This document shows, piece by piece, positions 5,741 to 61,789 of a DNA stretch of 64,000 nt. Within the stretch, counting starts at the first letter, position 1. Each line of letters starts with the position of its first letter. Origin of the DNA: Clostridiales bacterium PH28_bin88. Lineage in GTDB: Bacteria; Bacillota; PH28-bin88. Under the pieces are notes generated by a model. That model searched no databases and was not told the DNA's origin. It worked only from the letters and a program-made list of their open reading frames with translations. The translations under genes and the position numbers were made by a program. The stretch lies in contig LAKY01000029.1 in assembly GCA_000987045.1 (NCBI GenBank), forward strand, positions 1 through 64,000. The letters are read 5' to 3'.

Positions 5741-5746
5741 TATTAC

Positions 5747-5900: not shown

Positions 5901-7865
5901 TCAAGCATATTTATTTAGAATAGTTCTCCCCTTTTCTGTAACCACAATAAGACGGCGCCAGATTCCTTTTTCGACCAGATAACCCTTTCGGACCAGGTGG
6001 GATATGATGCTGGCCACAACCAGAGAGGGCAGCCCTTCTTCCTTGGCTAACTGGGGCAATTCCTCTGGCGATTTTCCGGAAAGCCTGAGAACTTTCAGAT
6101 ATAGTGGCTTAAGCCCATCTTTGGCCATTTCTGCTTCCTTATCAGAAAGCTTAGGTAGCAGCGCTATGCCTTTTTCGGTGATATCAATGGCGTAGAAGTT
6201 TGCGCCCCATAATGCGCGGCGCTTGATGTAGCCACCGCGGTCCAGTCTTTCAATACAGGCATTGCTTACCCTGGAGTCGACCTGCAGGGCGTCTGTTATC
6301 TCAGCCATGGACTCGTGACCAAAACGGAGCAGTTCGAGAACCTTATGGTCAAAATCAGTAATTTCAACCCTTTCACGTTCCCCTGCTGCCGGGTCCGCAT
6401 TCCAGGTAGTTTCACCATAGTATTTGGGTTTGGTAACGAGTGAGACCAGTACTGCCGGGATTAATGTAGCAAAGAGACCTGCTACCCCAACGTGCATAAT
6501 TGTACTGATAGAATAGATTTTCATTAGCTCCAACAAGGTCAACACTGCCATAGTACCCATGCCGATAAGTATTCCCCACCAGGCGCCCATCGCAGTAAAC
6601 CTTCTCCACACGATACCCAGCATAACCAGCACAGCCGGTGGCCCCAACCAGGCGTTAGCGAAGGCAAAGAGGTAGACGGGCCCACCTGGGTAATAAGAGA
6701 GCAGCCAAGTGAGACCACCCAGGAGCAGGAGTATTACCTTGGAAGGCATTAGAAGTTCTTTGGCTGTGGCATTGGGCTTATATACTCGTTGGTATATATC
6801 CCGCACAGCTGTAGAGGTGGCCCCAATATGAGCTGTAGCCGCGGTGGAAATAGAAGCGGCTAAGGCGCCAATGAGAAGGAAGGACGCCAGCATAACCCCG
6901 AATGACTTCATCATATAGCCATAGGCTGCCACATTAGCCAGTTTGCCTACAGGAGCAAAGAGCTGGGGATTAGCAGCTGCAGCATAAAGCCCAATTAAAG
7001 CAAGGGGCACGTAAATAATGAATACCAGAATTAATCCCGCCCAGACAAAGGACATCTTTGCTGTTCTTTCACTACGACAGGAAGCTACCCTCAGCCAGTA
7101 GTAATTGTTACCCCAGACCAAGAAAGCGGCAAAGAGAATGATAAAAGTCAAAACGCTGGGGTACTTAAAAGTAAAGATAGGTAGTTTTGCTCCGGCGAAA
7201 CCCGCCGTCCAAATATCAGAACCAGGCCAGGAAGCACTAAGGAACTCGCCCCCTCCATACTTTGACACGAGAGCAAGCACGAAGAGTGGAATAGCAATAA
7301 GACCCAAGATCATTTGAATAAAGTCTGTCATAGTCACAGCCCAAAGTCCGCTGAAAAACGAGAACAGTAGAATAATCATAAAACATAGTGTGATGGCTAC
7401 CCACAAAGGCCAGCCCGCATATCCGGCAACTGTGGCTGCCAGGGAAACCACGTTGTTGGCCATTATCCCTGTCAGACCAAAGATTGTAGTGATAGTAACC
7501 AGGAGCCTTACATTGGGAGAATAACGCATCTCCAGCCATTCGGGAAGGGTCTGGGCGCCACATTTTCTGATAAAGTTGGCGAAAATAATTCCGTACATAG
7601 CGAGCCCACCCAAGGAATAAATCCCCGACCAGGCCATAGATCCCCAAAATCCGAAACTTACGGCAAATCCGGGAGCAAGTGCTATACTTGTACCGGCATA
7701 ACCAATTGCGGCAACGCCGAAGATGTTAATGAGCAGGCTCACTTCCCGTCCTGCCAGGATAAAGTCCGAAGAATCCGCAATCCAGCGGCGGGTATAGTAC
7801 CCAGCATATGTGAGGATCACCGCAAAGCCCACGAAGAAAAACAGAAATACGGTATTAGAACCCAT
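5901..7865 (-). CDS. Sodium:solute symporter (SSS family) with C-terminal winged-helix domains
   Basis: A 654-residue protein. Residues ~1-490 form the ~13-helix sodium/solute symporter core (early motif FILAGREVSLLINIFGVAAI; RVASCRSERTAK in a loop). After the last membrane helix, residues ~500-654 hold two tandem modules that look like winged helices (about 505-575, ending GANFYAIDITEKGIALL, and 590-652, ending RRLIVVTEKGRTIL). Symporters of this family are normally ~480-550 residues, so the cytoplasmic extension is unusual. It is the last gene of the BKACE/cyclase operon and probably imports the substrate or a related carboxylate. Start ATG 7865 has an AAAGGAGG-like site upstream. Transport role well supported; substrate unknown. 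Confidence 0.85.
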   Translation of the reverse strand: MGSNTVFLFFFVGFAVILTYAGYYTRRWIADSSDFILAGREVSLLINIFGVAAIGYAGTSIALAPGFAVSFGFWGSMAWSGIYSLGGLAMYGIIFANFIRKCGAQTLPEWLEMRYSPNVRLLVTITTIFGLTGIMANNVVSLAATVAGYAGWPLWVAITLCFMIILLFSFFSGLWAVTMTDFIQMILGLIAIPLFVLALVSKYGGGEFLSASWPGSDIWTAGFAGAKLPIFTFKYPSVLTFIILFAAFLVWGNNYYWLRVASCRSERTAKMSFVWAGLILVFIIYVPLALIGLYAAAANPQLFAPVGKLANVAAYGYMMKSFGVMLASFLLIGALAASISTAATAHIGATSTAVRDIYQRVYKPNATAKELLMPSKVILLLLGGLTWLLSYYPGGPVYLFAFANAWLGPPAVLVMLGIVWRRFTAMGAWWGILIGMGTMAVLTLLELMKIYSISTIMHVGVAGLFATLIPAVLVSLVTKPKYYGETTWNADPAAGERERVEITDFDHKVLELLRFGHESMAEITDALQVDSRVSNACIERLDRGGYIKRRALWGANFYAIDITEKGIALLPKLSDKEAEMAKDGLKPLYLKVLRLSGKSPEELPQLAKEEGLPSLVVASIISHLVRKGYLVEKGIWRRLIVVTEKGRTILNKYA

Positions 7866-7955
7866 TTTTTCAACCTCCTTTTTTTAATTAATGGCTTTGG
7901 CTAATTAATTTAGTTATTTCAATTCCTCCTCTCTTGCATATGTAGAGCTAAACGC

Positions 7956-8723
7956 TTAAGGCAGAAATGCTACAGGCCTAACCCACCCAGCGCTCGCTCC
8001 CTTGATTTTTATTGGGAAACAGGCAACCTTAAATCCATGAGACGGTAGTTTGTCCAGATTGGTCATTTTTTCCATGTGATAGTATTCTTTCTCAATCCCC
8101 GCGAAATGGCCTTCCCAAATCAGACTGGAGTCCTTTGTGACTGCAAAATCCTTGGCAATGAAAGGAAGCGGGCGATCCCAGCTCCAGGCATCGATTCCTA
8201 CAACTTTCACACCTTGGTCTAACAACCAGAGGGTCGCTTCCCTGCTCATACCGCACCCCTTAACAAGGTATTCCTGTTTCCCCCAGTACTTGTCCGCTCC
8301 CGTACATACCAGGACAATGTCCAGGGGTTTTAAAGTGTAGTCAATCTTCGTGAAGGCATCGCCAAAATCCTGAGCTGTTACCAAATAACCATCCGTTTTG
8401 TCCCTGAAGTCAATAACCACTCCGTCCGAAAAGCACCACTCCAGAGGGGCCTGATCAATGCTTCTGGCCGGTTCACCTTTATTCATTGTGGGGTGATAGT
8501 GCCAGGGAGCATCCAGATGGGTGCCGCTGTGGGTGGTTAGTTTGATAAACTCAATAGCCCATCCCAAACCTTTTGGCAAATCATCCTTGTTGGAACCCGA
8601 GAAAAAGGTGATCATGTTCTCGGCCCCCTTCTGGTGATCCCAATACTCGATTTCCGGGATCATAAAGGCCGGATCACTTGGCAACCCACCTTCAATGGTT
8701 ACACTAAGATCAAGTAACTTCAA
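7956..8723 (-). CDS. Cyclase-family (kynurenine formamidase-like) metal hydrolase
   Basis: A 255-residue member of the PF04199 cyclase family. The metal-binding signature HSGTHLDAPWH is present (His65, His69, Asp71, His75), as is the later VKVVGIDAWSWDRP block with its conserved Asp. Family members hydrolyse amides or lactone-like substrates (kynurenine formamidase, isatin hydrolase) or cyclise polyketides. Here it sits between a BKACE enzyme and a symporter, so it probably processes a small amide, ester or cyclic acid in a catabolic route. The ATG at 8723 is preceded by GGAGG. The exact substrate cannot be told from sequence. Confidence 0.85.
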   Translation of the reverse strand: MKLLDLSVTIEGGLPSDPAFMIPEIEYWDHQKGAENMITFFSGSNKDDLPKGLGWAIEFIKLTTHSGTHLDAPWHYHPTMNKGEPARSIDQAPLEWCFSDGVVIDFRDKTDGYLVTAQDFGDAFTKIDYTLKPLDIVLVCTGADKYWGKQEYLVKGCGMSREATLWLLDQGVKVVGIDAWSWDRPLPFIAKDFAVTKDSSLIWEGHFAGIEKEYYHMEKMTNLDKLPSHGFKVACFPIKIKGASAGWVRPVAFLP

Positions 8724-8759
8724 AATGAAAACCTCCTATTCACCGCTCAGCTTTTATTT

Positions 8760-9689
8760 TCAAAATTCAACCTGTTCCAATCCTTTCAGGCCAAGGATCA
8801 TCCTGGCTTCATCAGAGGTAGCCGACTCCAGCCCCAATCGTTCGGCAATCTCCTTAATCTGGGTAACCTGCTCACCACTGGATTTGGCCAAAACGCCCGG
8901 CCTCAGGTAGAGATTATCTTCCAGCCCAACACGAACGTTGCCACCCATAGCCAGACCGGCAGCAGTCAGAGGGAACTGGTGTCTCCCGGCTGCGGCTACA
9001 GACCAATTAAACTCACCCAGTTGTTCGCGGGCTGTCTTATACAGGTAGACCAGGTTATCTACAGTAGCTGGAATCCCCCCCAAGATACCCATTACAAACT
9101 GAATGTATATTGGCCTTTTGATTAAGCCTTTTCTGAGGAAAAAAGCAACGTTATTAATCATTCCTACATCATATACTTCGAATTCCGGACGAACACCGTT
9201 TTTGTTCATGGTGGTGATATAGTGTTCCATACCCTTAAACGTATTTGTAAAAATTAGATCGTAAGTTCCTTCGAGATAGGGAACTTCCCAGTCATATTTT
9301 GGGCCGAGCTTTTTAACCGTTTCAGCAGCGGGCGTGAGAACAAAGTTTACTGACCCGGCATTACAGGAAGCTAGTTCCGGTTTAAATGCTGGAACAGCAG
9401 CAATTCTCTGTTCAATAGTCATTCCGAGGCTTCCACCGGTGGTTATACAAATAATTACGCTGCAGCGCTTTTTAATTCCGCTGATAATCTTTCTCATTAT
9501 TTCTAAATCCGCTGAAGGCTTTCCATCCTCATAAGTCCGGCTGTGGATGTGGACTACGGCAGCTCCAGCCTCGTAAGCACCCACGGCATCATCAATTATC
9601 TGTTGTGGAGTTATAGGCAAATAGGGGGACATAGTAGGGGTGTGAATTCCACCTGTTATTGCCGCGGTTATGATCACCTTTCGCGTCAT
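8760..9689 (-). CDS. Beta-keto acid cleavage enzyme (BKACE, DUF849)
   Basis: A 309-residue TIM-barrel enzyme of the 3-keto-5-aminohexanoate cleavage family. Signature elements are KVIITAAITGGIHTP at the start, the zinc-binding HIH at 47-49 (VVHIHSR), CITTGGSLGM near 81-90 and the PELASCNAGSVNF block. BKACEs condense a beta-keto acid with acetyl-CoA to give acetoacetate and a CoA ester; the lysine-fermentation enzyme Kce is the best known. No other lysine fermentation genes are adjacent, so the substrate may be a different beta-keto acid. It is the first gene of a three-gene operon behind a sigma-54-type promoter 40 bases upstream. The start ATG has an AAAGGAG site. Confidence 0.88.
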   Translation of the reverse strand: MTRKVIITAAITGGIHTPTMSPYLPITPQQIIDDAVGAYEAGAAVVHIHSRTYEDGKPSADLEIMRKIISGIKKRCSVIICITTGGSLGMTIEQRIAAVPAFKPELASCNAGSVNFVLTPAAETVKKLGPKYDWEVPYLEGTYDLIFTNTFKGMEHYITTMNKNGVRPEFEVYDVGMINNVAFFLRKGLIKRPIYIQFVMGILGGIPATVDNLVYLYKTAREQLGEFNWSVAAAGRHQFPLTAAGLAMGGNVRVGLEDNLYLRPGVLAKSSGEQVTQIKEIAERLGLESATSDEARMILGLKGLEQVEF

Positions 9690-31037: not shown

Positions 31038-32384
31038 TCAACAAACATTATTTTTTTCTTGACACAATTTAAGAAGTGCCACTTCGGCCTCGTTAGCCCA
31101 AGTCACTGTTTCGCCCCGAGCCATTCGTGCTTGCCTGATTAAGGCAAGATTACGTGCCGTGGTTTCTGGTTCCCATGACTCGCGTGCAAGAGCTAAAGCA
31201 TTTGCTAACGCAATTTCGCCGACCTTTTGATCACGCCCTAGTATTGCTAACTCTAGTTGCGTAGCATAGTCCCAGTAGTCGGGTTCGCCTTGGGCGATGC
31301 GCATTTCGTTTGAGTAGCGCACAACAGGTAATAGTACAGATTGGCGCGGGTCTGGTGGAGTCTTAACCTCCATGAGCGTTACAGCATTAATCCCTGGATA
31401 AGCGTCCCGCCAATCGGCTTCGAATCCCTTAAGATAAGCTGAAATGGCCTGATCAAGCAGGCCTTGTGCTAGATATATATTGCCGGAATTTATCGCTTTT
31501 TCCCAGCGGTCTTTGTAGACCCGTCCTAGTATTCCATAGGTCTCACTGCTACCACCCCGCTCTGCGATTAAATCTTTCAATACCCGTTCGGCCTCATCAC
31601 TCCGCCCAATGCGGTTTAAAGCTAAACCTAATTGTTCACGAACCAATACCGTTACTGACAGTGGTGGCGCCATACGTTCGACTAGAGAGATCATACGCCC
31701 CCACGATTTTACTGCACGATAGGAAAGAAAGAGATCTACTACCACTGCAGCATCGGCACGGCTGATGTCTCCTAGTTCAGTTTCCACAGCCACTACAGCA
31801 ATCTCACCTTCTTGCCGTGCCTTGGTAAGCTTGGCCTTAATGTCCTCAGAATATCGGATACGGTCACGAAAAACATCAGTTTTAAGTCGTGCAATGTCAG
31901 GAACAGGAAAACCCTCTAGCATTTGAAACAAAGGACTGTCAGTAGTTGCCCCCATAGCCTCTTTTAGTCGTTCTGTTAGAATTACAACATTTCGCTTCGT
32001 GTTCGTAGGCTTACCGTCTGGCCCAAGTTGGTAAGGTATAGCACGTAATAGTCCTACATCAAAAGGCAGTTGCCCCCAACCCTCAGCAAAGAGTAATTGA
32101 GTTGCCCAAGGCCTTACCGAATGCCGTATTCCTAACTCATAAAATACATTTGCATTTGCAGTGGTTAAATCGGCTACAGCGTACTCGCAAAGAACTAGGC
32201 GTTCGAACATAGCCTTGTGAATTACCCCACCTGTTATGTCTTCATCTGCCCGTAGGGGCTCTAGTCCCGCATCTATCACTGCAGGTTTGATAAGTTTTTC
32301 ATAAACTACATCAAAGTTCACCACCCGGCCATCACCAGCGGGTTTCTTGCCAAAAGGCATAAGTATAAAGCAGAGGGGTCGCAT
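31038..32384 (-). CDS. DRHyd-like / TPR protein (TPR-S, TRAFs-binding-like), candidate effector
   Basis: A 448-residue protein. The N-terminal ~110 residues (CFILMPFGKKPAG, then AGLEPLRADED, then CEYAVADLTTANANVFYELG) match the nucleoside-deoxyribosyltransferase-like domain found in 'TRAFs-binding'/TPR-S proteins, a Rossmann-like fold related to TIR and SLOG folds. Residues ~190-440 are helical and TPR-like. Proteins of this kind recur in bacterial conflict systems. It is the last gene of the five-gene TIR/deazaguanine operon, 6 bases after the TIR gene. A role as sensor or effector for the TIR product is inference; regulatory roles are possible. Confidence 0.75.
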   Translation of the reverse strand: MRPLCFILMPFGKKPAGDGRVVNFDVVYEKLIKPAVIDAGLEPLRADEDITGGVIHKAMFERLVLCEYAVADLTTANANVFYELGIRHSVRPWATQLLFAEGWGQLPFDVGLLRAIPYQLGPDGKPTNTKRNVVILTERLKEAMGATTDSPLFQMLEGFPVPDIARLKTDVFRDRIRYSEDIKAKLTKARQEGEIAVVAVETELGDISRADAAVVVDLFLSYRAVKSWGRMISLVERMAPPLSVTVLVREQLGLALNRIGRSDEAERVLKDLIAERGGSSETYGILGRVYKDRWEKAINSGNIYLAQGLLDQAISAYLKGFEADWRDAYPGINAVTLMEVKTPPDPRQSVLLPVVRYSNEMRIAQGEPDYWDYATQLELAILGRDQKVGEIALANALALARESWEPETTARNLALIRQARMARGETVTWANEAEVALLKLCQEKNNVC

Positions 32385-32390
32385 ATCAAA

Positions 32391-32876
32391 TCACTCCAAA
32401 CCGCTGATGGTCTCGGAAAGCTTTGCCCAAGGGACGCACTTGATTGTATTATGTTCAATTGCTTTTGGTAGCTTAGCGGGTCGTGTTTCTCCCGCAAAAA
32501 CCCCAATCACTTGCTTTCCTCTTCTGAGACTTTCTTCAATTTCCCACTCAACCCAATGGCTAGACGGTGTTTTATCTGAGAGATAGACTACAGTTAGCGA
32601 GGATTGAGCAATGCGTTCTCCAATTTTTTGCTTAATATAAGGTGACCGTTCACTATTAAAGGGCTCAGATACTGACCAATCGTTGAATTCAATTGGAGAT
32701 TTTTCATTCTTTGCCTGTGCCCGTAAGAGGTTTACATAATCAATATCCTCATACGCAAAGCTTATAAAAACATTCTTTTTTCCTTGCTTTTCGCCTTCTC
32801 TTAATTCCTCTTTTGCTCGTTCTACAAGGGTCTCCAGATCGCCGATACCATGCAAGCTGCCTCCACCACCGCCCAT
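32391..32876 (-). CDS. TIR-domain protein with Met-Gly5 N terminus
   Basis: A 161-residue protein. The ATG at 32876 has GGAGGTG seven bases upstream, which fixes the start; longer readings have no such site. The protein begins MGGGGGS, then a charged helix (~12-32), then a TIR domain of the DUF1863/ThsB-like type (VFISFAYEDIDYVNLLRAQA at 36-55; LTVVYLSDKTPSSHWVEWEI at 94-113). The predicted catalytic Glu is 112. Such TIRs make NAD-derived cyclic signals in Thoeris. The gene begins three bases after the QueC-like gene ends. The exposed poly-glycine after Met removal could be a substrate for N-terminal conjugation. Confidence 0.85.
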   Translation of the reverse strand: MGGGGGSLHGIGDLETLVERAKEELREGEKQGKKNVFISFAYEDIDYVNLLRAQAKNEKSPIEFNDWSVSEPFNSERSPYIKQKIGERIAQSSLTVVYLSDKTPSSHWVEWEIEESLRRGKQVIGVFAGETRPAKLPKAIEHNTIKCVPWAKLSETISGLE

Positions 32877-32878
32877 TG

Positions 32879-33469
32879 TTACACCTCCAAATCGATATAC
32901 TCCCGACAAGCTACACAGACACCACAAGGCTCCTCGGTGCCTAGATGACATGAATAGGTCCCATCTATTCCTTTTAATTTGGCAATTCGTACAATCTCTG
33001 CTTTAGAAAAAGACATTAGAGGCGTTATGATGCGTATCGAATGACCAAGACCTTTGGAGATTAAATCTTCTGTATCCCTGATGAAATCTACAGTTTGATC
33101 CGGAAATAAGCTAAATGCCTCATCAAGAAGACCTATTGCTACTGCATTAGCATTACACTGGTATGCGTAGGCTGCTCCTATTGTTAAAAACAATAGGTTT
33201 CTACAAGGTAGAAAGGCATCTTCGAAAACTCTCTTATTCGGATCTGTTAAGCCCGAAGACAGTAGTGCCCCGTAACCGCCAAGTCGCATAATTTTAGGAG
33301 TGGGAAGCCCGTAACGTTGGAAGTTATTTAAACAGGCATTTAACTCCTTATCTCGGTTAAGTTGTCCGTAATCAATGAATAAGGGGAATTGAACAATTTT
33401 TTCTTCATGTGCCAATATGGCCATTATGGTTGAATCCAAACCACCTGATACAAGAGTAACTATACTCAT
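32879..33469 (-). CDS. QueC-like ATP-dependent deazaguanine enzyme (Cap9-like)
   Basis: A 196-residue member of the QueC family. The PP-loop SGGLDS is at 8-13, FIDYGQLNRDKE follows, and four zinc-binding Cys are at 174, 182, 185 and 188 (GTEEPCGVCVACRE). QueC converts carboxy-deazaguanine to preQ0; QueC relatives in type IV CBASS (Cap9) and Qat systems act in defence. No queD/queE/folE neighbours are present, and the context is an OGG-like glycosylase and TIR proteins, so a housekeeping queuosine role is unlikely. Start and stop overlap or abut its neighbours, showing operon coupling. Confidence 0.88.
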   Translation of the reverse strand: MSIVTLVSGGLDSTIMAILAHEEKIVQFPLFIDYGQLNRDKELNACLNNFQRYGLPTPKIMRLGGYGALLSSGLTDPNKRVFEDAFLPCRNLLFLTIGAAYAYQCNANAVAIGLLDEAFSLFPDQTVDFIRDTEDLISKGLGHSIRIITPLMSFSKAEIVRIAKLKGIDGTYSCHLGTEEPCGVCVACREYIDLEV

Positions 33470-34164
33470 AAACCCAACTCCCTAGCAGCCCGCATTGTTG
33501 CCCAAATTGCCCAGTCCAAATATCCGACGGGGTAACCTAATGAATTAGCATAATTTTTGACAACACGTTCTGTCCGTTCGTAAGCTGGAAGGGTTGCTAT
33601 ATTCATATGCTCCTGGCACACAATATTTTGCATTTTCATAAAGCGAAGCACATGGGTATCTAGAATAGCAAGATCGTAACTTATGCCAATGTTACGAAGG
33701 AACATACTGGCTTGTTTGGGCCCAATTCCAGCGATATCCATAACCAATCGCTGTCTTATGTTCTTTGGATCTGTATTTTTAAAAAGCCGTTCAGAAAGGG
33801 GCCACTTAGCGATAGCGTTACGAGCTGTTGCCAACTGATGAGCCCTAGTTTTTGGAAACCGATAGCACCAGTTATCATGGTTTTGATGGGTTTTGCCCGA
33901 AAGCACCTCAAATATCTTGGTTTCAAAATTATCCTCTACATTACACCACCATTCATCATTAAGTAATCCTGCCCTTTCTATTCGCTCCAATGCAGTGTAA
34001 GCCATTTCATACCTTACTTGGCTCCCGAGTATACATGCCACTAATTCTCTTCGTAATAAGTACTCATTCAAATGATTGTCTAAATAAATATTTTGTTCGA
34101 TGATAGGGCAAAGTACACGAACAGTGTCTTCCAATTGTGCTAAATTGCATAGGTTTATTCTCAT
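33466..34164 (-). CDS. OGG-like HhH-GPD glycosylase fold protein (Cap11-like)
   Basis: A 232-residue protein with the helix-hairpin-helix IAGIGPKQASMFLRNIG (146-160) and a downstream LAILDTHVLRFM. Lys150 and Asp169 sit where 8-oxoguanine glycosylase/lyases keep their catalytic Lys and Asp. The C-terminal GYLDWAIWATMRAARELG is typical of the OGG2/archaeal-type group. In type IV CBASS a relative is Cap11. It may cleave or recognise a modified purine, possibly the deazaguanine adduct made by its neighbours rather than 8-oxoG. Start overlaps the TIR-TGT stop (ATGA) and the stop overlaps the QueC-like start. Confidence 0.83.
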   Translation of the reverse strand: MRINLCNLAQLEDTVRVLCPIIEQNIYLDNHLNEYLLRRELVACILGSQVRYEMAYTALERIERAGLLNDEWWCNVEDNFETKIFEVLSGKTHQNHDNWCYRFPKTRAHQLATARNAIAKWPLSERLFKNTDPKNIRQRLVMDIAGIGPKQASMFLRNIGISYDLAILDTHVLRFMKMQNIVCQEHMNIATLPAYERTERVVKNYANSLGYPVGYLDWAIWATMRAARELGL

Positions 34165-35615
34165 TTCAGCATCAATTCCTTAAATAATTTAGTCCCAATT
34201 ATTGGTATGTATTTTAACAAATGCTCTACCTGACCTGCTGCAATCATATCTTGCATAGTTTTTGTCCAATCGCTAAAAAAATCAATATTGTAACTTAATA
34301 CTCGTGCCACATAAGATGCGTTAGGGTTTTCAATTATTCTACGAATTTCGTGAGATTGCAACCGCGAAAGGCAATGATCGCTAAAAAAATCGAAATGCTG
34401 GAAGTGGAACAAATAGCCGTTATTATAATCGGCTACTGTTCGGCACCATTCTAGACCATCAAAAGAATCAGCACCAGCTGCTGCAAAAGCTATCATGGAA
34501 ATGGGATTTCCGGTGCCTAACAGATGGAAGGGGTAATATTTACCGAGATTGTTTAATGCTTTCCTAATATCACGGACTGTCCTAACCCGTTCAACAAGAC
34601 CATCACCCAACTCCCGTTCAGGAATTGCAACCATAACAGGCTTAAGCTCCGAAGTAACTTTGGCAACAAGTTGTGAAGCACATCCAGCAAGTGTTCCTTC
34701 ATATTTATCTGGTAAATGGATAATCGGGCAAAGAGGAAAATCTAGTGGGCTAATGGCCTTTTCATCTTGACGAAAATTCCGAATGATACGATCAGCAACT
34801 TCGTCGATGTCTCCTTGTGGATTTACCTCATCAAAGCTAAATGCAATATCTGGAGAGAGCACACCTGCTATTTCTCTAAAATAATTTTTTTGCCAGCCTT
34901 TCTTATTTTCTTCTGAGTACCGGTCATCTTTTCTGAAGGCCTCATAATTCCCCGAGTCAAGAACTATTGTGCAAGATGACTGGCGCAACTCATAAACGCT
35001 ATTGAAAAAGTCTTTACCTATATCTTTGTCTACCATGTATTTCCAAGCATCATAGGCAGAAATGAGAGTAGCAGCAGGTTTGAGTAATTGGAACAGCTTC
35101 ACACCATCCTTCGGTGAAACCTGAGTCTCATGAGAAGAAAGAGAGAATATAAAGCATGGTAGTTTAAAACTCTTATTTTCCAATTTAAGCGTTAATGTCC
35201 GTTCTAAATTATTATCGTCTTTCTGTTTTTCTCCTAATTTGGCAACAATCTTCTGTTTCAACTGCTTATAACCAGGATGGTTTTCGTCACCATTCCAACC
35301 AAAAGCGTCTGTCCTATTTAGATGACCAAAACCTAATGGTGGTTCTACTTCATCAATAAAAAATGGATAAATGAGTCTTTCTTGTTTTTCTGCAAACCTT
35401 AGCTCATCCCTAAATATCTTTTTATCTGCAGTATGGTAAGAAAAAACCGGTACCACGGCCTTTGTACTGCTAATCTGGGAGCGAACCTCTTTCTCCCAAT
35501 CACCTTGGGCAATATCCCCTGCCCACCACACATTCCAGCTCCTACGGAGGAGCAATACTAATTTTTCAGCAATTGTTTCATTTTCTGAAGCAAAAATTAC
35601 GCAGATATCCGTCAT
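34161..35615 (-). CDS. TIR domain fused to tRNA-guanine transglycosylase-like domain (Cap10-like)
   Basis: A 484-residue fusion. Residues 1-130 form a TIR domain (MTDICVIFASENETIAEKLV; candidate catalytic Glu71 in FRDELRFAE). Residues ~150-484 are a TGT-like barrel: VLDSGNYE near 218-225, FHLLGTGNP at 363-371 and GADSFDGLEW at 381-390, where Asp386 occupies the nucleophile position. The CXCXXC-His zinc cluster of canonical TGTs is not visible. The ATG at 35615 with AAGGAGT upstream is a much better start than an upstream in-frame ATG at 35735. First gene of the five-gene operon. TGT relatives in type IV CBASS are Cap10; fusion to TIR is unusual. Confidence 0.85.
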   Translation of the reverse strand: MTDICVIFASENETIAEKLVLLLRRSWNVWWAGDIAQGDWEKEVRSQISSTKAVVPVFSYHTADKKIFRDELRFAEKQERLIYPFFIDEVEPPLGFGHLNRTDAFGWNGDENHPGYKQLKQKIVAKLGEKQKDDNNLERTLTLKLENKSFKLPCFIFSLSSHETQVSPKDGVKLFQLLKPAATLISAYDAWKYMVDKDIGKDFFNSVYELRQSSCTIVLDSGNYEAFRKDDRYSEENKKGWQKNYFREIAGVLSPDIAFSFDEVNPQGDIDEVADRIIRNFRQDEKAISPLDFPLCPIIHLPDKYEGTLAGCASQLVAKVTSELKPVMVAIPERELGDGLVERVRTVRDIRKALNNLGKYYPFHLLGTGNPISMIAFAAAGADSFDGLEWCRTVADYNNGYLFHFQHFDFFSDHCLSRLQSHEIRRIIENPNASYVARVLSYNIDFFSDWTKTMQDMIAAGQVEHLLKYIPIIGTKLFKELMLK

Positions 35616-35976: not shown

Positions 35977-37929
35977 ATGATTCCGGTGCAAAAACCCCCT
36001 CAAAATACCTATAAATCGACATAATTCTGAAGGAATATTTTCCATCATAGCGAATCATAAAGATTCAGGAAGAGATACAGAGCAGCAGTAACCAAATCTG
36101 CTTCCAGGGGGTATAGAGCGTGTTCAGGGAGAATAGAACGCATTTACAAACAGCATTATTTAATACCACCACCTTGATGCACCCCAGAACAACGGCTCAG
36201 CTAAAGAAAAGCTGGGCGCCTATCTACTACGAGCACGTGTTTTGCAAGATAGACGAAAAGAAGTTTGCGCCCCTTTATTGCCCGGATAATGGTAGTCCCA
36301 ACAAGCCGGTCAACATCCTCCTTTCCCTGGAATTTATTAAACACCTGTATGACTATACCGACGAGCAACTATTGGAGCAGTATTACTTCAACTACCAGAT
36401 AGCCTATGCTCTGGGGCAACGTAACCTGGGCGAACTATACATTTGTGAAAGGACCCTTTATGACTTCCGCCGCCGGGTTTACGAGTATACCCTTAAGCAT
36501 CCAGAAGAAGAGGACCTGATATTCCAGCAATTTCAAGAACTCCTTGGCCACTTCATTGCCATAACCAAAATCAAAACCGATGAACAGCGCATGGATTCCA
36601 CAGCCATCATGCCCAATATCAAACGAGCCGGAAGGTTAGCGCTGGCCTTTGACGTTTTAAAACAAGGGGTGGCAGCCTGCCCTCAGGAGCTATTACCAGA
36701 AACCCTCAAGAAGGCCTTAGAACCTGCTTTTAAAACCGAGGTTCTTTATCACTCCCGCAGCCAGGACGTCAAAGCCAGGCTTGAAAAAATCCTGGAGCTG
36801 CAAGAGCAACTGGTGGTCATTACCCATTCCATGCCGGGGATCGCTGGCTTGCCCCAAATAAAACTTGTTCAGCGGTTTATTGAAGAGCAGACCACCTATG
36901 ATCCGGAACAAAAGAAGCGGGTAGTCAAAGAAAACAAAGACATTAGCCCGGACTCCTTACAGTCAGCCTATGACCCGGATGCCACCTACCGCAAGAAAGG
37001 TAACAAAGAACAGGTAGGTTACGTATGCAACCTCACCGAAACCTGCAGTGAAGACAATCCCGTCCAGTTGCTCACTGACTACACCATGGAAAAGAACATC
37101 AAAGCCGATGTCGAAATGGCCACAGAGCGCCTACCTGAAATTAAAGAAAGGACAGGTTTAACAGACCTCTATGCCGATGGCGGCTTTTACGGCGAAGATA
37201 CCCACCGGAAGGCCGAAGAAGAACTGGGCGTGAAGATGCACTATACCGATTTAACCGGACGGAAGCCGGCGGCGGACAAAATACCCCTGGCTGACTTTAG
37301 CATTGAAAATCATAAGAAGGTATTAGCCTGCCCGCAAGGGCAGGTTCCCACCCACACCTTTTTTGACGAACCCAACAGAAAAATTACTGCCTGGTTTGAC
37401 CCCCAAATTTGCCGGGAGTGCCCTTGCCGGGAACAATGCCCGGTTAAAATCCAGAAGAAAAAAGCCCTGCTGCAATTTAATCAAAGCGCATTGCTGGCCG
37501 CCGAGACCCGCAAAGATCTGGCCAATGCTGAATGCCGGCGTCAAAATATCAGCAAACGGGCAGCCATCGAAGGTACTATCTCGGCGGTGAAACGCGGTCG
37601 CGGCGCTTCCAAACTGGCTGTACGTGGTGGGCTCAAATGCGCCCTGGTAATGGGCCTGAAGTGTATCGCCCAGAATTTCCAGCAACTTAAAAGGTGGTTT
37701 CTTAATCAAGCGAGGGATGCGAAGGGAATATCTGTCAAACCCAAAACACCTACTTTGCAAGGGGTTAGTGTCCCTGTTTGATGGAAAAACCAGGAAAAAG
37801 GAGGTAATAATGCTCCCGCCTGTAGTTTTAAGGAGACCACATCGTCCATAAAATACCATTTTTGCTGTCAAAGAGCTCTTGGGTACTTAGAATAGGTCAT
37901 TTAATTTTGGGTTCTTGCACCGGAATCAT
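35977..37929 (+). mobile_element. IS1182-type insertion sequence with terminal inverted repeats
   Basis: Left end ATGATTCCGGTGCAAAAACCC (35977 onward) and right end, read inward, ATGATTCCGGTGCAAGAACCC (37929 backward) are near-perfect inverted repeats about 1.95 kb apart around one intact transposase. AGAT occurs next to both ends, but a target duplication is not certain. Confidence 0.88.
36120..37781 (+). CDS. IS1182-family transposase
   Basis: A 553-residue DDE transposase. The N-terminal DUF772-like region (NIL..LEFIKHLYDYTDEQLLEQ), the central ADGGFYGEDTHRKAEEEL block and the C-terminal cysteine segment (CRECPCREQCP) followed by RAAIEGTISAVKRGRG are typical. The frame is complete, so the element may still move. 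A 56-base relic of the same gene lies at 5747-5802. It sits between the TIR-TGT operon and the Thoeris-like pair. Confidence 0.93.
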   Translation: MFRENRTHLQTALFNTTTLMHPRTTAQLKKSWAPIYYEHVFCKIDEKKFAPLYCPDNGSPNKPVNILLSLEFIKHLYDYTDEQLLEQYYFNYQIAYALGQRNLGELYICERTLYDFRRRVYEYTLKHPEEEDLIFQQFQELLGHFIAITKIKTDEQRMDSTAIMPNIKRAGRLALAFDVLKQGVAACPQELLPETLKKALEPAFKTEVLYHSRSQDVKARLEKILELQEQLVVITHSMPGIAGLPQIKLVQRFIEEQTTYDPEQKKRVVKENKDISPDSLQSAYDPDATYRKKGNKEQVGYVCNLTETCSEDNPVQLLTDYTMEKNIKADVEMATERLPEIKERTGLTDLYADGGFYGEDTHRKAEEELGVKMHYTDLTGRKPAADKIPLADFSIENHKKVLACPQGQVPTHTFFDEPNRKITAWFDPQICRECPCREQCPVKIQKKKALLQFNQSALLAAETRKDLANAECRRQNISKRAAIEGTISAVKRGRGASKLAVRGGLKCALVMGLKCIAQNFQQLKRWFLNQARDAKGISVKPKTPTLQGVSVPV

Positions 37930-38286: not shown

Positions 38287-39234
38287 TTAAATTTTCTTTT
38301 CATCAACCAATCGCCAATAATGATATCCTAAAGCAGTAAGACGACATGACTTAGAATTCATTGCTGCAAAATACATATGCTCTTCATCAACAGGCTTAAC
38401 CAAACCGACAGACTCAAATTTCTGAAGGTCTTTAAAAATACGTACATTATCTTCATTTGGGCTATCAGACGTGAACTCAAATGAGGGGTCTAGCTTAAAT
38501 TGCTCTTCAGGGCTAGAAAAATAATCCTTGATTTTTCGCAGTGTTTCCAGGGCCACGGGCGGATTAATTTTTCTCAAGGGGGTGAACCGGGATACATTTG
38601 TTTTAAAAATTGGCCTTTGCTCCCAGGCACCCAGAGCAGAGTCAACATACGAATATAAATTGCCAGGAGTAATAAAACCTCTGAGGTCAGCAGCACCACC
38701 GCGTAATGCATCAACTAATAAAGCAGTGAAAACGCCAGAACCACCTTTTTCTAGAGCATATTCTGAAGCTCGACTTGCTGTTAAAACAGTTAACCCATCC
38801 CCAAGAAATGCGGCAGAGGAACCTGTAAGAGCAGGACTTGCAAAGGCACCTGAGTGGCAACAGTCAAGGATAATAATTTTATCCCTGGCCTTTGAGTTGT
38901 TAGCAACAGTAAGAATTTCATCCATTGAAAGCCCTTCATCGTATCTTTTAGAATCCGCAGTGACAATATAGCCACCAGTTGGTTTTATGAGCCCATGCCC
39001 GGAAAAGTAAAAAAGAGCTACTTCAGCATCGCCTTCAAAGAGACTTTCAATTAATTCCCGAAGAGATGCTCTAGTAATTTTATGCGGTGGATCTGTCAAA
39101 AGTTTCACAGAAAAATTTGGGGAACCATCTCCATTTACTTCAAAAACGCTAGCCACTTCAATTGCATCATTTACACACCCGTATAATGGGGCAAAAGGGT
39201 AATCGTTCACACCTACTATTAAAGCTTTTCTCAT
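38287..39234 (-). CDS. Caspase-like cysteine protease (type IV Thoeris-like effector)
   Basis: A 315-residue protein with a C14 caspase/metacaspase fold at residues ~1-200. It opens RKALIVGVNDYPFAPLYGC; the catalytic His is His80 (FYFSGHGLI) and the Cys is in ILDCCHSGAF (Cys126, or Cys125). Residues ~215-315 form a separate domain with a winged-helix-like end. The ATG at 39234 is preceded by GAGGTG, favoured over a GTG nine bases upstream. The TIR gene lies directly upstream in the same operon. TIR plus caspase-like protease is the make-up of type IV Thoeris, where a TIR-made nucleotide activates the protease. Membership is inferred from gene content. Confidence 0.82.
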   Translation of the reverse strand: MRKALIVGVNDYPFAPLYGCVNDAIEVASVFEVNGDGSPNFSVKLLTDPPHKITRASLRELIESLFEGDAEVALFYFSGHGLIKPTGGYIVTADSKRYDEGLSMDEILTVANNSKARDKIIILDCCHSGAFASPALTGSSAAFLGDGLTVLTASRASEYALEKGGSGVFTALLVDALRGGAADLRGFITPGNLYSYVDSALGAWEQRPIFKTNVSRFTPLRKINPPVALETLRKIKDYFSSPEEQFKLDPSFEFTSDSPNEDNVRIFKDLQKFESVGLVKPVDEEHMYFAAMNSKSCRLTALGYHYWRLVDEKKI

Positions 39235-39246
39235 AACTTTCACCTC

Positions 39247-39663
39247 TTACTTGGCAAGCTCTTTAATAGCACTTATTATCGAGCTAGATTGCCATTTGAC
39301 AATCTTGTCAGCATTGTCCTTAACCACCGTTGAAGTCCGCTCTGAACCCCAAGGTTCTATAGCTATGATAGGCTTAACAGTCGCAAAACCATTTTTTGCA
39401 ATATCTATTTCCTTGTTAATCCACTTACTGTATGTAGAATAGACCCCAGCCAGAATAAGAATTACATGGCATGGCTGAATTTGCTTTTTAATGGCTTCAT
39501 AAAGTTCCTTGTCATTTTTTGCATTATGAACAGGATCGTCCTTAGGAACGGAATAGTTTTTGTAGCTAAAATTTGAGTCTTTGTTTAACAGGCCAATTAA
39601 ACCATCATAAGCGCCACTATAACTCCAGGAATGGCTAATGAAAAGATTATACTGATTATTCAT
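39247..39663 (-). CDS. ThsB-like TIR-domain protein
   Basis: A 138-residue single TIR domain of the DUF1863 type: YNLFISHSWSYSGAYDGLIG near the start, YSVPKDDPVH at 37-46, and TYSKWINKEIDIA with candidate catalytic Glu85. The start ATG at 39663 has AGGAGGTG upstream; a longer in-frame start at 39696 lacks one. In Thoeris, ThsB makes an NAD-derived signal on phage recognition. The partner caspase-like gene begins 12 bases after its stop. It is separate from the TIR genes at 32.4-35.6 kb and not closely similar to them. Confidence 0.85.
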   Translation of the reverse strand: MNNQYNLFISHSWSYSGAYDGLIGLLNKDSNFSYKNYSVPKDDPVHNAKNDKELYEAIKKQIQPCHVILILAGVYSTYSKWINKEIDIAKNGFATVKPIIAIEPWGSERTSTVVKDNADKIVKWQSSSIISAIKELAK

Positions 39664-39774
39664 TAAACAGCACCTCCTATTTTTATTTTCTTTCATTTTA
39701 CACCAGCCCCCATATTATTACAAGGAAATGTTTGGGTGTGTAACCAGCCACTGAGCAAATGGGAAGACCTAACA

Positions 39775-55382: not shown

Positions 55383-57326
<1,944 letters not shown>

Positions 57327-57432
57327 CTAATAGAATATTATATCACTACCTGTTTGTCATTACCACTCTGATGGCGCAAGGGCGCAAGGGAAAGCCGCAG
57401 CTATTTGCCACGGCCTCCAGGTGAGGTAAGAT

Positions 57433-57690
57433 TCAAAATAGATTCAATTTCCCCGACTCTGCTCTCTTAAGGAGAGTCGCTGAGGAAATGGACGACAGGT
57501 ACACCTTGCTGGTGGTTATGATGCAGGACTTGGGTTCCTCGTCTTTAGCTACTGCCTGCAATGCACCTTCAACTTCCGCCACCTGTAAGAATTCTCTAGT
57601 GAGATCGCTTTTTCGGGAAAGGTCAATATCTATAATGGCAACGATCTCTTCTTGCGGGACAATCATGTCCCTCCCAATGTGTAAATACAT
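57433..57690 (-). CDS. remB: RemB-like regulator (DUF370)
   Basis: An 85-residue DUF370 protein (MYLHIGRDMIVPQEEIVAII; SCIITTSKVYLSSISSATLL). The recF-remB-gyrB order is that of Bacillus, where RemB (YaaB) is linked to biofilm matrix control. The ATG at 57690 has GGAGG at good spacing; an in-frame TTG two codons upstream is the alternative. Confidence 0.9.
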   Translation of the reverse strand: MYLHIGRDMIVPQEEIVAIIDIDLSRKSDLTREFLQVAEVEGALQAVAKDEEPKSCIITTSKVYLSSISSATLLKRAESGKLNLF

Positions 57691-57729
57691 AGTCAACCTC
57701 CGTACTGCTATTCATTATCCATCTATTTT

Positions 57730-58842
57730 TTACGAGAGTTTGCCTTGCCTGACATTGATGATTTCAGCTTGCTTTAATGCAGCTAAAGGTATTCCTTCCC
57801 TGGTGCTGGCTGAAACAAAACACTGAACTGTATCCGTGATATCCTTCAATAATTGTTCCCTGCGATGCAGATCCAATTCAGACAGGACATCATCAAGCAG
57901 TAACAGAGGGTATTCACCGGTTTTCCTCCGGATCAACTCCATCTCTGCCACCTTAAGGGAAAGGGCTATCGTTCGTTGTTGCCCCTGGGAGCTGTACAGC
58001 CTGGATTCCCTTCCATTAATTTTAAGATGAAGATCATCCCGGTGCGGGCCTACCAGAGTGACTCCCTGGTTGATGTCTTGCCGCCTGCTTTCCGCCAGGC
58101 GTGACGCGAAAAGGCTTTTAATAAATTTAACATCTTTTTCCTTTTCATCGGCGCCAATGGTGGAAACGTAAGAAACCTCTAACTGTTCCTCTCCACCGCT
58201 GTATTTCCGGTGGGCCTCCGCCGCCACTACTTTCATGACCTGAACTGTTTCCAGACGTGATGACAACAACCTGGACCCCACCTCGACCAATTGTTCATCC
58301 CAGACATCTAATTGATAGGAAACAGCTACTGAAGACCTGGCCTGCCTTAGAAGATGATTGCGTTGCATTAGAAGTTGCCGGTACTGTTGAACCAGCGAAC
58401 GAAACCGCGGGTTGAGTTGGGAGATGTGCAGGTCTAAAAAATTTCTTCTTCCCAACGGGGGTCCCTTGACCAGCGCTAGGTGCTCGGGAGCAAACCATAC
58501 CGCCTGCATGATTCCCACACCATCATGCAAGCGGGATTGAGGTACTCCGTTCACTAACAGCTTTTTTCCCTTTTCCCTCTCGTAAATAAGGTGGAATGAC
58601 AAGTTTCCACTGTTTTCCTGTATTTCAGCCTCTATGATAAAAAAAGGAGCTTCCCAGGCCAGCACATGGATATCGTTAACCCCTCTGGGGGAGCGTCCAA
58701 AGCTAAGGTAGGCAATGGCTTCTAATAAATTACTCTTACCCTGGGCATTATCACCAAGTACTATGTTTAGTCCTTTGCCTGGAAATAACTGATCGTCCCT
58801 GTAGTTTCGAAAGTGTTGTAAATGGAGATGGTTTAAGTGCAA
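57730..58842 (-). CDS. recF: DNA replication and repair protein RecF
   Basis: A 370-residue SMC-like ATPase that helps load RecA at gaps. Walker A GDNAQGKSNLLEAI (~31-44), signature YSSQGQQRTIALSLK and Walker B LLLLDDVLSELD are present. The start is a TTG just before the end of the S4-protein leader sequence (GAGGGG upstream). Standard place in the origin cluster. Confidence 0.95.
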   Translation of the reverse strand: MHLNHLHLQHFRNYRDDQLFPGKGLNIVLGDNAQGKSNLLEAIAYLSFGRSPRGVNDIHVLAWEAPFFIIEAEIQENSGNLSFHLIYEREKGKKLLVNGVPQSRLHDGVGIMQAVWFAPEHLALVKGPPLGRRNFLDLHISQLNPRFRSLVQQYRQLLMQRNHLLRQARSSVAVSYQLDVWDEQLVEVGSRLLSSRLETVQVMKVVAAEAHRKYSGGEEQLEVSYVSTIGADEKEKDVKFIKSLFASRLAESRRQDINQGVTLVGPHRDDLHLKINGRESRLYSSQGQQRTIALSLKVAEMELIRRKTGEYPLLLLDDVLSELDLHRREQLLKDITDTVQCFVSASTREGIPLAALKQAEIINVRQGKLS

Positions 58843-58847
58843 CTTGA

Positions 58848-59090
58848 TTACCCCTCGCGAAGGACATTCAAAAAAAGACCTGTTTTACCGGGGACCTGTA
58901 CTGCTACCTGATCTCCTGGTACCAGGGAACGACCTCTCCTGTTCTCCGGTACTCCGTTCACTTTAACATGCCCTCTGGTAATCAGGCTTTTCGCCTCACC
59001 GCCAGTCACTACTACCTCCGCCCACTTCAGAAACTGATCCAAGCGAATACTTTCCGTCCGGATTACGATAGAATTTATCCTCAAAACCAT
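58848..59090 (-). CDS. S4-domain RNA-binding protein (YaaA-like)
   Basis: An 80-residue protein with a single S4 fold (RLDQFLKWAEVVVTGGEAKS; ITRGHVKVNGVPE). Homologues between dnaN and recF in Firmicutes (YaaA/RlbA) are linked to ribosome assembly. Gaps of 5 bases to recF and 15 to dnaN indicate an operon. Confidence 0.9.
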   Translation of the reverse strand: MVLRINSIVIRTESIRLDQFLKWAEVVVTGGEAKSLITRGHVKVNGVPENRRGRSLVPGDQVAVQVPGKTGLFLNVLREG

Positions 59091-59105
59091 TCCTCCCGGA
59101 ATTCA

Positions 59106-60227
59106 TCACTGCACTCGCATAGGAAGTATCAGGCAAAAGTAAGGCACTTCATCAACGGGACGAAAGATCGCGGCACTCAGCGGGCCTGTCCATTCCATGG
59201 CTATTTGATCGCTATCAATTACCTTCAATACATCCAACAGGTAACGGGCATTAAAAGTAATTTCCATCTCCTCACCCTCGAAATCCACCGGAATCTCTTC
59301 ATGGATCCTTCCTACTTCCGGAGAATTAGAGTCTACCATTAGAGTATTTCCATCCAATTTCATATTAATAATGTTCGCGCGTATTTTGGGATCCTCTCTA
59401 ACCAGTAAAGAAGCCCTTTCTACCGCACCTTGTAATTCTCTTGTGTCCGCCAATACCCTTGTTCGCCACCCTGCCGGCAACACCTGCTGGTATGTAGGAA
59501 ACTGCCCGTCGATTAGCCGAGAGATCAATACTGTTTCTTTTCCTTCAAATACTATCTGGTTTCCCGCCAGGGAGAAACGAACATCTTCCTCTTCTTCAAT
59601 CAAGCGGGAAACCTCTACCAGAGTTCTTCCCGGGACGATTATACTTGTTTTTGGAAGTTCTCCGTGCAAGTCAAGGTTCCCTCGCCTGACGGCCAGCCGG
59701 TGGGTGTCCGTGGCTACCAGTATAAAACTCCCATCATTTTGCATCTCCAGCATTATTCCGGTAAATATCTGCCTTACTACATCATGGGAAAGAGCAATGG
59801 CCACCTGCTTGATCATTTGACGGAAAAGGGTAGACTCAACAGTTAAAAACCCCTGCTCTGAAGGGAGAGGAATTAGGGGAAATTGATCAGGTTCCATCCC
59901 GTTTAAATGCAGTTCGGCTTGGGCGTAATTAATTCTCACGCTCCAGGAATCCGCTTCTTTTTTGAGTTGAACAGGTCCTGAAGGAAATCGCTTGACCATT
60001 TCCCCAAAGTATCTTGCAGGTAGGACTAATTTGCCTTGTTCTTCTATTCTAGCAGGAATACTGCAACGGATACCAATTTCTAGGTCTGTTGCGCTTAAAT
60101 GAAGCTGGTCATCACCTGTTTCGAGCAAAATGCCGGATAAAATAGGAAGCGTGTTTTTGTTCGACACTGCACGGATGACAATACCCACACCTCTGGTAAG
60201 CTCGTCCTTGTCACAAGAAATATTCAT
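59106..60227 (-). CDS. dnaN: DNA polymerase III sliding clamp beta
   Basis: A 373-residue three-domain clamp that tethers DNA polymerase to DNA. The N-terminal MNISCDKDELTRGVGIVIRA, ILSGILLETGDDQLHLSATD and the C-terminal PVDEVPYFCLILPMRVQ (ending in the usual PMR motif) are diagnostic. AAGGAGG precedes the ATG. A perfect DnaA box lies between it and dnaA. Confidence 0.97.
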   Translation of the reverse strand: MNISCDKDELTRGVGIVIRAVSNKNTLPILSGILLETGDDQLHLSATDLEIGIRCSIPARIEEQGKLVLPARYFGEMVKRFPSGPVQLKKEADSWSVRINYAQAELHLNGMEPDQFPLIPLPSEQGFLTVESTLFRQMIKQVAIALSHDVVRQIFTGIMLEMQNDGSFILVATDTHRLAVRRGNLDLHGELPKTSIIVPGRTLVEVSRLIEEEEDVRFSLAGNQIVFEGKETVLISRLIDGQFPTYQQVLPAGWRTRVLADTRELQGAVERASLLVREDPKIRANIINMKLDGNTLMVDSNSPEVGRIHEEIPVDFEGEEMEITFNARYLLDVLKVIDSDQIAMEWTGPLSAAIFRPVDEVPYFCLILPMRVQ

Positions 60228-60305
60228 GGTGAGCCTCCTTTTGAGACAAAGTCTTTTATATAGTGTTTTAAAAACGAGTCGTAATAATAGTAGTGGTGTG
60301 GAAGT

Positions 60306-60398
60306 TGTGGATAACCATAAAAAAATGAGGCATAGAATAAAAAATGGTTGTACAAAAGCCTGTGAAAATCATTAATCCAAATCTATAGTTTGTCCACA
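60306..60398. promoter_or_regulatory. DnaA boxes between dnaN and dnaA
   Basis: TGTGGATAA at 60306-60314 is a perfect DnaA box (minus strand) and TTGTCCACA at 60390-60398 is a one-mismatch box. With the cluster upstream of dnaA this gives the bipartite arrangement known from Bacillus. Confidence 0.7.
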
Positions 60399-60420
60399 CA
60401 CTGAATCTTTTAAACGTTTA

Positions 60421-61773
60421 TCAATTTGTCTGCAAAAGGTTGATGATCTCCTTGATGGTTTTGTCCAAAACTGCATCTTTACCGATTTGAGACGAGATTT
60501 TTTCGCAAGCGTGAATGACCGTAGTATGGTCTCGACCACCAAATTCGTGTCCTATTTGCGGTAACGAAGCATCCGTCAACTCACGGCATAGGTACATAGC
60601 AACTTGTCGTGGAAAAGCAACTGACCTGGTGCGGCGTTTGGATTTGAAATCTTCTAAGCGAAGACTAAAATAACTGGAAACTCTTTCTTGAATAAAGGTG
60701 ATGTTAATAGGTTGAGGTTTAGAAAATCCGGCCAAATCTTTTAAGGCATCAGCCGCAAGTTCAGGAGTGATCCGCTGATTTGTCAATGAGGTTAAAGCAG
60801 CTACCCTGATTAAAGCACCTTCCAGTTCGCGAATATTGGATTGAACCTTGTTAGCGATGAAAACAAGCACGTCATTTGGAAGATTAAGGTTTTCGAGGGT
60901 TGATTTTTTGCGTAGAATAGCAATCCTGGTTTCCAGGTCAGGGGGTTGAATATCTGTAATCAAACCCCATTCGAACCTGGAGCGAAGGCGATCCTCCAAA
61001 GTGGGAATCTCCTTTGGCGGACGGTCACTGGAAATAATGATTTGCTTGTTGGCTTCGTGCAGGGCGTTGAATGTGTGGAAAAATTCTTCCTGAGTGCGCT
61101 CTTTACCAGCTAAAAACTGAATATCGTCAACCAGTAAAACATCTATGTTACGGTATTTCGTGCGGAATTCCTCGGTTTTATCGTCACGGATAGAATTAAT
61201 TAAGTCGTTGGTGAACTTCTCAGAGGACACATACATTACCTTGAGACGAGAAAGCCGCGCTAAAACGTGGTGGCCAATAGCCTGCATCAGGTGAGTCTTG
61301 CCTAAACCAACTCCACCGTAAATAAAGAGAGGGTTATAAGCCTTGGCAGGGGTTTCAGCTACCGCCAGCGCAGCCGCATGGGCAAACCGGTTGCTGTTGC
61401 CGATAATAAAGGTATCAAATGTGTATTTTGGGTTTAAGGGGGTGGATAAAGTTTCATCAAGTTGAGGGGCCCTAACTTGCCACTGTGCGGCATCTTTTTT
61501 GGAATTCTTGGGATGAGGGGTATTCAGAACGAATTCCAGTTGAACGTCTGCATTAACTAGTAGTTGAAGGGTATTCTTGATCAAATTATAATAACGGCTT
61601 TCCAGCCAATCTTTAGCAAATTCATTGGGTACCAGGATCACCATCACGTTCCCCCGATAATCTACTAACTGAGTGTAACGCATCCAGGTATCGAAACTGT
61701 TTGAACTAAGCTCATTCTCCAAAATATCCAGGGTACGCTGCCAGAGTTCAGACAGTCGATTAGATGAGACCAT
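60421..61773 (-). CDS. dnaA: Chromosomal replication initiator DnaA
   Basis: A 450-residue initiator. Domain I ([20 protein letters not shown]), the AAA+ domain with Walker [16 protein letters not shown] and Walker [15 protein letters not shown], and the domain IV DNA-binding signature [14 protein letters not shown] are present. The ATG at 61773 follows AGGAGG; the longer open frame to 61941 runs into the origin and is not real coding. Confidence 0.97.
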
Positions 61774-61789
61774 GAGCTTTCCTCCTAAA

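Follow-up and report, generated by a model that had tools for sequence, protein, structure and literature searches.

A recurrent operon linking a QueC-like enzyme to TIR proteins: a candidate TIR class of protein-tagging defence

We examined a five-gene operon of Clostridiales bacterium PH28_bin88, packed on the minus strand at 31038-35615 of a 64,000-nt stretch of contig LAKY01000029.1 (the window; all coordinates count from its first letter). The genes encode a TIR-TGT fusion, an OGG-like glycosylase, a QueC-like enzyme, a small ThsB-like TIR protein, and an ASK1-like DRHyd/TPR-S protein. Judging from sequence comparison, we think it probable that the operon is a TIR class of QueC-based protein-tagging (deazaguanylation) defence, in which the QueC-like enzyme would tag Gly2 of the small TIR protein and the TIR-TGT fusion would read the tag. 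The gene content, its recurrence, the Gly-Gly N-terminus, the lineage of the enzymes and their motifs were observed directly, and are described below before the mechanism is taken up.

In type IV cyclic-oligonucleotide-based antiphage signalling systems (CBASS) the initiator Met of the cGAS/DncV-like nucleotidyltransferase (CD-NTase) is removed, whereupon Cap9 joins Gly2 to 7-deazaguanine (PMC13279940; PMC11996544); this N-terminal 7-amido-7-deazaguanine (NDG) modification requires an MGGS N-terminal motif (PMC13279940). The small TIR protein of the window begins MGGGGGSLHG, and an MGG[G/S] start, a feature that the initial annotation did not report, was found at 20/20 loci (the window plus 19 others), with G2 and G3 invariant: MGGGGGS in the window, and MGGGSSG, MGGGGGG, MGGGGNG, MGGSSTG, MGGSSSG or MGGSSIG elsewhere. 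Clustering at 90% identity sorted the 20 proteins into 11 groups, whose cores are as little as 50% identical to one another; Glu112 was invariant across loci, and at no locus was the start more than a few bases from the queC stop. The positive control consisted of four type IV CBASS operons of the same phylum as the window, each with Cap9, Cap10, CD-NTase and SLATT (and an OGG-like gene at 2/4); their CD-NTases began MGGSGG at three loci and MSGGG at the fourth. The negative control comprised 14 related TIR genes without a queC neighbour, from 12 plasmid records, and neither the MGG start (0/14) nor the ~32-residue tail (0/14) was present among them. The strongest evidence of this analysis is that two unrelated proteins carry one putative acceptor motif, each next to the same writer enzyme. 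The earlier suggestion that a TIR protein takes the place of the cyclase gains strong support from it beyond that first offered, the small TIR bearing what appears to be the Gly-Gly N-terminus of a Cap9 substrate.

Relatives were sought by tblastn with the TIR-TGT fusion on plasmids, and by a scan of 84,980 species genomes; five of the plasmid loci were opened. The plasmids held 13 full-length TIR-TGT relatives (Rhizobium, Agrobacterium, Neorhizobium). The scan returned 15 loci, 14 of them real members, from Pseudomonas (8), Brenneria, Halomonas, Marinobacter, Falsochrobactrum, another Rhizobiales, and a contig in a Micrarchaeota bin; L026, with a TIR only, was not counted as a member. The contig in the Micrarchaeota bin (6.6 kb, 64% identical to the window in TIR-TGT) is probably mis-binned. 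Hosts included plant-associated, soil and marine bacteria. At 19/19 loci outside the window a hidden Markov model (HMM) scan found the TIR-TGT, OGG, QueC and TIR genes in identical order on a single strand with a DRHyd/TPR-S gene nearby; because it recurs at 19 sampled loci, the gene order is not due to chance. A PfkB kinase gene stood directly upstream at 18/19 loci, a SLATT gene was present at 16/19, and a third TIR gene at 12/19; the window operon and locus L013 were without all three. In R. etli CIAT 652 (L009) a frame change disrupts the fusion gene, and in P. gessardii (L025) ~2.4 kb of inserted sequence divides it. HMMs detected no CD-NTase, neither in the window operon nor around the 19 others. 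The initial annotation would have been refuted by a gene set found nowhere else or by a CD-NTase regularly belonging to the operon, and neither proved to be the case.

The TIR class is rare. A TIR-TGT search through 398 further species of the window's phylum found no such operon, nor did a TIR-TGT profile census of 368 further species in the class to which one Pseudomonas host belongs; four same-phylum matches to TIR-TGT proved to be type IV CBASS and were set aside. The Brenneria operon, used as a distant DNA query, had no match in 5,426 E. coli genomes. Viral contigs searched with the QueC protein alone gave no matches, and phage records yielded distant TIRs and nothing closer. All parts of a TIR-class system, PfkB, SLATT, third TIR and DRHyd genes included, were seen at 2316-9454 of an 82.7 kb contig classed as viral (L085; IMG/VR), where an adjoining HD-domain gene points to an integrative element and not to a phage. 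One phage contig (L086, 1-926) carried a truncated OGG-QueC pair of the TIR-class kind beside phage-like structural genes.

Alignment showed that the QueC-like proteins keep SGGLDST, the RN pair, YGQ together with a Glu further downstream, and all four zinc cysteines (Cx7CxxCxxC). A maximum-likelihood tree was built from the TIR-class proteins, Cap9, and 29 canonical QueC proteins of the window's phylum; the TIR-class proteins formed a clade of their own (support 100/98), Cap9 formed another (100/95), and both were split from the canonical QueC proteins (96/93). A separate canonical QueC was present in 12/13 proteobacterial hosts, so the QueC-like enzyme of the operon is a second copy there. 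The TGT domain likewise departs from the housekeeping type. The fusion matched TIR_2 (5.9e-11) and TGT (9.2e-6) in Pfam and the CBASS TGT model of PADLOC (2.5e-26), and Cap10 (9ntn, 2.4e-11) was the only PDB sequence match of its profile. Its predicted fold (mean predicted local distance difference test score 77) matched TGT and Cap10, Cap10 having the highest target-normalised TM-score (0.62) among the matches listed. When aligned with four Cap10 proteins and the canonical TGT of the window's host, the fusion was found to have SAYD, DSGxYE, E[RK]ELG and FDGLxW in common with Cap10, and to lack the zinc cysteines that the canonical TGT has. Three Asp residues, assigned to the base site by reference to Zymomonas TGT, were kept. 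Neither enzyme falls among the housekeeping queuosine enzymes, a placement that would have refuted the initial annotation.

Glu71 of the fusion, like Glu112 of the small TIR, was invariant, and NAD (nicotinamide adenine dinucleotide) chemistry by both proteins may be possible because these residues do not vary. Cap10 binds its CD-NTase at the tagged N-terminus (PMC11996544), and by analogy the fusion would most likely carry its own TIR domain to the small TIR once that is tagged. In the OGG-like proteins of the TIR class, K150 and D169, which correspond to the Lys and Asp found in active HhH-GPD glycosylases, were invariant; at CBASS loci L030 and L031 the OGG-like proteins have Ala at the position of the catalytic-type Lys. 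The OGG-like enzyme of the TIR class may edit the tag, supply the base or sense DNA. The predicted fold of the DRHyd/TPR-S protein matched the N-terminal regulatory region of ASK1 (MAP3K5; 8qgy, 3.5e-9; 5ulm, 7.4e-7).

From these observations we infer tagging, its reading, NAD chemistry, a role for the OGG-like enzyme and, for the operon as a whole, phage defence, which might proceed as follows. Removal of Met from the small TIR would expose Gly2, to which the QueC-like enzyme, using ATP, would join 7-carboxy-7-deazaguanine or a close analogue, as Cap9 does on the CD-NTase. The TGT domain of the fusion, presumably no longer acting on tRNA, would bind the tagged N-terminus and so bring two TIR domains together; upon infection the paired TIRs would act on NAD+, and the DRHyd/TPR-S protein (with SLATT and the third TIR in the proteobacterial versions) would execute or relay the response. 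The OGG-like enzyme would probably edit or check the tag, or sense altered DNA.

Several points weigh against this reading. The small TIR of L013 requires a TTG codon for its MGG start. Long branches in the QueC tree leave a sister grouping with Cap9 uncertain, and we do not claim that relation; in pairwise comparison the QueC-like enzyme was nearer to E. coli-type QueC (6.6e-21) than to solved Cap9 (3.6e-9). The YPDC substrate motif is FPDQ in the TIR-class proteins, which keeps an aromatic ring and the Asp corresponding to the residue that, in Cap9, reads the base edge (PMC13279940). No QueD, QueE or canonical QueC was found in the window's host genome, which is rated 100% complete, so that 7-carboxy-7-deazaguanine has no evident source there; a weak QueC match elsewhere in that genome was ThiI, and of the weak QueE matches the best two resembled the activating enzymes of pyruvate-formate-lyase and ribonucleotide reductase. 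The host does have a canonical TGT. QueD was absent also from the L013 bin and from 3/4 type IV CBASS hosts of the phylum, so a lack of de novo synthesis is compatible with the mechanism. All 13 proteobacterial hosts tested had QueD. The hosts of QueC-based defence that were without QueD were G000 (the window genome), G013, G047, G324 and G399, and G000, G047 and G399 were also without a QueE match. In the window's host the base could possibly be imported, be another base, or come from phage-encoded synthesis.

The same gap bears on the idea that the QueC-like enzyme does tag the TIR, with a base or acid other than 7-carboxy-7-deazaguanine. The lack of queD, queE and canonical queC in the window's host and the alteration of YPDC to FPDQ would fit such a substrate; however, the base-edge Asp and an aromatic residue are kept in the QueC-like enzyme, the base-site Asp residues are kept in the TGT domain, and QueD is present in all 13 proteobacterial hosts tested, and we give this idea little credence. 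We also regard as unlikely that the set acts on nucleic acid, the QueC-like enzyme making preQ0, the TGT-like domain inserting it into DNA or RNA, the OGG-like protein excising it from unprotected or phage DNA, and the TIRs being suicide effectors. The catalytic-type Lys150 and Asp169 retained by the OGG-like proteins speak for it, as does the presence of Dam or Dgt genes adjoining a related plasmid QueC/OGG class (described below) in Citrobacter and Rhizobium; but the TGT domain is Cap10-like and without canonical zinc cysteines, Cap10 binds a tagged protein N-terminus (PMC11996544), and it would leave the invariance of the MGG start in the small TIR unexplained.

Given that the accessory enzymes are of the same types as in type IV CBASS, and that one CD-NTase exists 30 kb off in the window, the operon might be a type IV ancillary set whose CD-NTase was lost or acts in trans (e.g., from the CBASS pair at 186-2374). 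This is very unlikely: 0/19 loci have a CD-NTase while QueC and TGT are fixed beside TIR genes, the CD-NTase of the window belongs to a SAVED-type CBASS and does not start MGG, and the TIR-class QueC-like genes are a clade of their own. Scarcely credible, finally, is a Gly-rich tail that is a mere flexible linker or common start context, beside a metabolic queC captured by the defence island. Gly-rich starts evolve easily and the motif by itself does not prove modification, but 0/14 related TIRs have a Gly-rich tail, the operon order is fixed across distant bacteria, and most proteobacterial hosts carry a second, canonical queC. Tagging of the small TIR by the QueC-like enzyme and its reading by the fusion is the account that we favour.

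The features of the operon are collected in Table 1. Coordinates, spacings and domain matches (Pfam and PADLOC) all agree with the minus-strand five-gene set as first read. Adjacent genes overlap or abut: TIR-TGT/OGG -4, OGG/QueC -4, QueC/TIR +2 (ATG at 32876), and TIR/DRHyd +6 bases. A longer open reading frame for the small TIR (start 32951) was rejected, as it overlaps queC and is without homology, whereas ATG 32876 has a GGAGGT Shine-Dalgarno sequence and conserved sequence.

Table 1. Features of the operon within the window.
Feature	Coordinates (strand)	Matches and landmarks	Proposed role
TIR-TGT fusion	34161..35615 (-)	TIR ~residues 1-120; Cap10-like TGT domain ~138-440	Candidate reader of tagged TIR
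OGG-like HhH-GPD glycosylase (Cap11-like)	33466..34164 (-)	Pfam Ogg-HhH 3e-28; invariant columns Lys150, Asp169	
QueC-like ATP-dependent enzyme (Cap9-like role)	32879..33469 (-)	Pfam QueC 2e-35	Candidate writer of deazaguanine tag
Small ThsB-like TIR	32391..32876 (-)	Pfam ThsB_TIR 2.4e-23	Candidate QueC substrate and NAD-consuming signal or effector enzyme
Codons of MGGGG start	32862..32876 (-)	Directly behind queC stop and GGAGGT Shine-Dalgarno sequence	
DRHyd/TPR-S protein	31038..32384 (-)	Pfam TPR-S 5.9e-27, MAP3K_TRAF_bd 3.3e-43	Candidate sensor or effector of TIR signal

The island setting described in the initial annotation was confirmed, with bacteriophage exclusion (BREX) genes (BrxL, PglZ, BrxA) at 15.8-29.7 kb, a TIR and caspase pair at 38.3-39.7 kb, and the CBASS pair at 186-2374; so was the statement that the sole CD-NTase of the window (986-2374, start not MGG) lies 30 kb from the operon, in another one, beside a SAVED effector (186-926). 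The second TIR gene of the window (39250-39714 region) directly precedes a caspase-like gene (38287-39243), which is 2.7 kb upstream of the operon, and the pair resembles pairs on plasmids L075, L078 and L080-L082. An insertion sequence transposase (36120-37781, opposite strand) lies just upstream of TIR-TGT, at the position of the PfkB kinase in the proteobacterial loci. With dnaA, dnaN, recF-like and gyrB genes at 55383-61941, the defence island is near the chromosome origin.

So far deazaguanylation is known in type IV CBASS alone, with Qat as a second, suspected case. The present operon suggests that a protein-tagging switch can be fitted to different immune alarm enzymes; if this is true, deazaguanylation would be a general module for immune signalling enzymes, with its acceptor motif carried on an unrelated protein, and the natural fusion of reader and TIR would offer a way to ask what the tag does. 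There is an outside chance of something broader: nucleobase tagging at protein N-termini as a general, portable immune switch with QueC as writer, TGT as reader and perhaps OGG as eraser, working on TIRs, CD-NTases and QatB, in which hosts without queD and queE, the window's host among them, would obtain the base only from infecting phages with 7-deazaguanine genes, so that tagging would report infection.

With respect to known systems, the operon does not correspond to queuosine biosynthesis: the QueC-like enzyme is off the canonical lineage, the TGT is Cap10-like, and no queD or queE was found in the genome of the window's host. The DRHyd/TPR-S protein is like ASK1 in predicted fold, but it is bacterial, has no kinase domain, and stands in a defence operon. 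Like the present operon, qatABCD has a QueC-family protein, QatC, with a partner, QatB, on which an unstructured N-terminal MGTS is essential for defence (PMC13279940); QatC, however, has large extensions and no Tyr/Asp base site, the system is without TIR, TGT and OGG, and QatB is unrelated to TIR. The QatC match in PADLOC was 0.0024, and no QatA or QatD was among the Pfam matches of the operon. The small TIR is of ThsB type by its Pfam family (ThsB_TIR, 2.4e-23), as in Thoeris; but the operon has no ThsA-type SIR2-SLOG effector (Pfam showed no SIR2, SLOG, Macro or caspase gene inside it), and related TIRs are without the Gly tail and the deazaguanine enzymes.

A 2026 survey of PF06508 describes, in its main text, Cap9 beside CD-NTase and a PfkB-linked cluster 4 (QueC plus PfkB-deoxyribosyltransferase; PMC13329287), and that main text has no mention of TIR with QueC and CBASS. 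Cluster 4 is like the TIR class in that PfkB kinase and OGG-like genes accompany the proteobacterial operons; it differs by a QueC motif CHx5CxxCxGCxK, by having no TIR and no TGT, and by a Gly-rich small partner starting MSG. A further QueC-linked class matching cluster 4 was seen on plasmids of Methylocystis, Pseudohalocynthiibacter, Citrobacter and Rhizobium (L087 6702-9538, L088 4860-7865, L089 4809-8422, L090 4647-7602, L091 3854-7456). It encodes a PfkB-deoxyribosyltransferase fusion, a short QueC-like protein (CHx5CxxCxGC), an OGG-like glycosylase, a SagB-type nitroreductase-like protein (by eye), and a small protein whose start is Gly-rich at most of the loci (MSGSGGGS..., MSGPGGG...), with no TIR, TGT or CD-NTase; the OGG and the Gly-rich partner appear not to be mentioned in the survey (PMC13329287). 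Dgt-type dGTPase genes lay beside this class at L089 and L090, with a DNA adenine methylase too in Citrobacter. In the literature searched for QueC with TIR, Thoeris or CBASS no description of the present operon was found, although the full text of the Cap9/Cap10 study was outside the scope of that search and may hold a prior mention.

Type IV CBASS is the system to be compared most closely. The TIR class differs from it by a TIR in place of the CD-NTase, with no CD-NTase in the operon, by fusion of TGT to a second TIR, and by gene order; its QueC is a separate clade with FPDQ vs Y.DC, and its OGG keeps the catalytic Lys that Cap11 of L030 and L031 is without. The two are alike in that a single operon encodes QueC-, TGT- and OGG-like enzymes and a signalling enzyme starting MGG[GS], so that a QueC neighbour bears MGG(S) in both, and in the SLATT effector, found nearby in CBASS loci and in 16/19 TIR-class loci. 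Both also have a TGT of Cap10 type that appears remodelled away from tRNA, as judged by the profile and fold match to 9ntn and the missing zinc cysteines.

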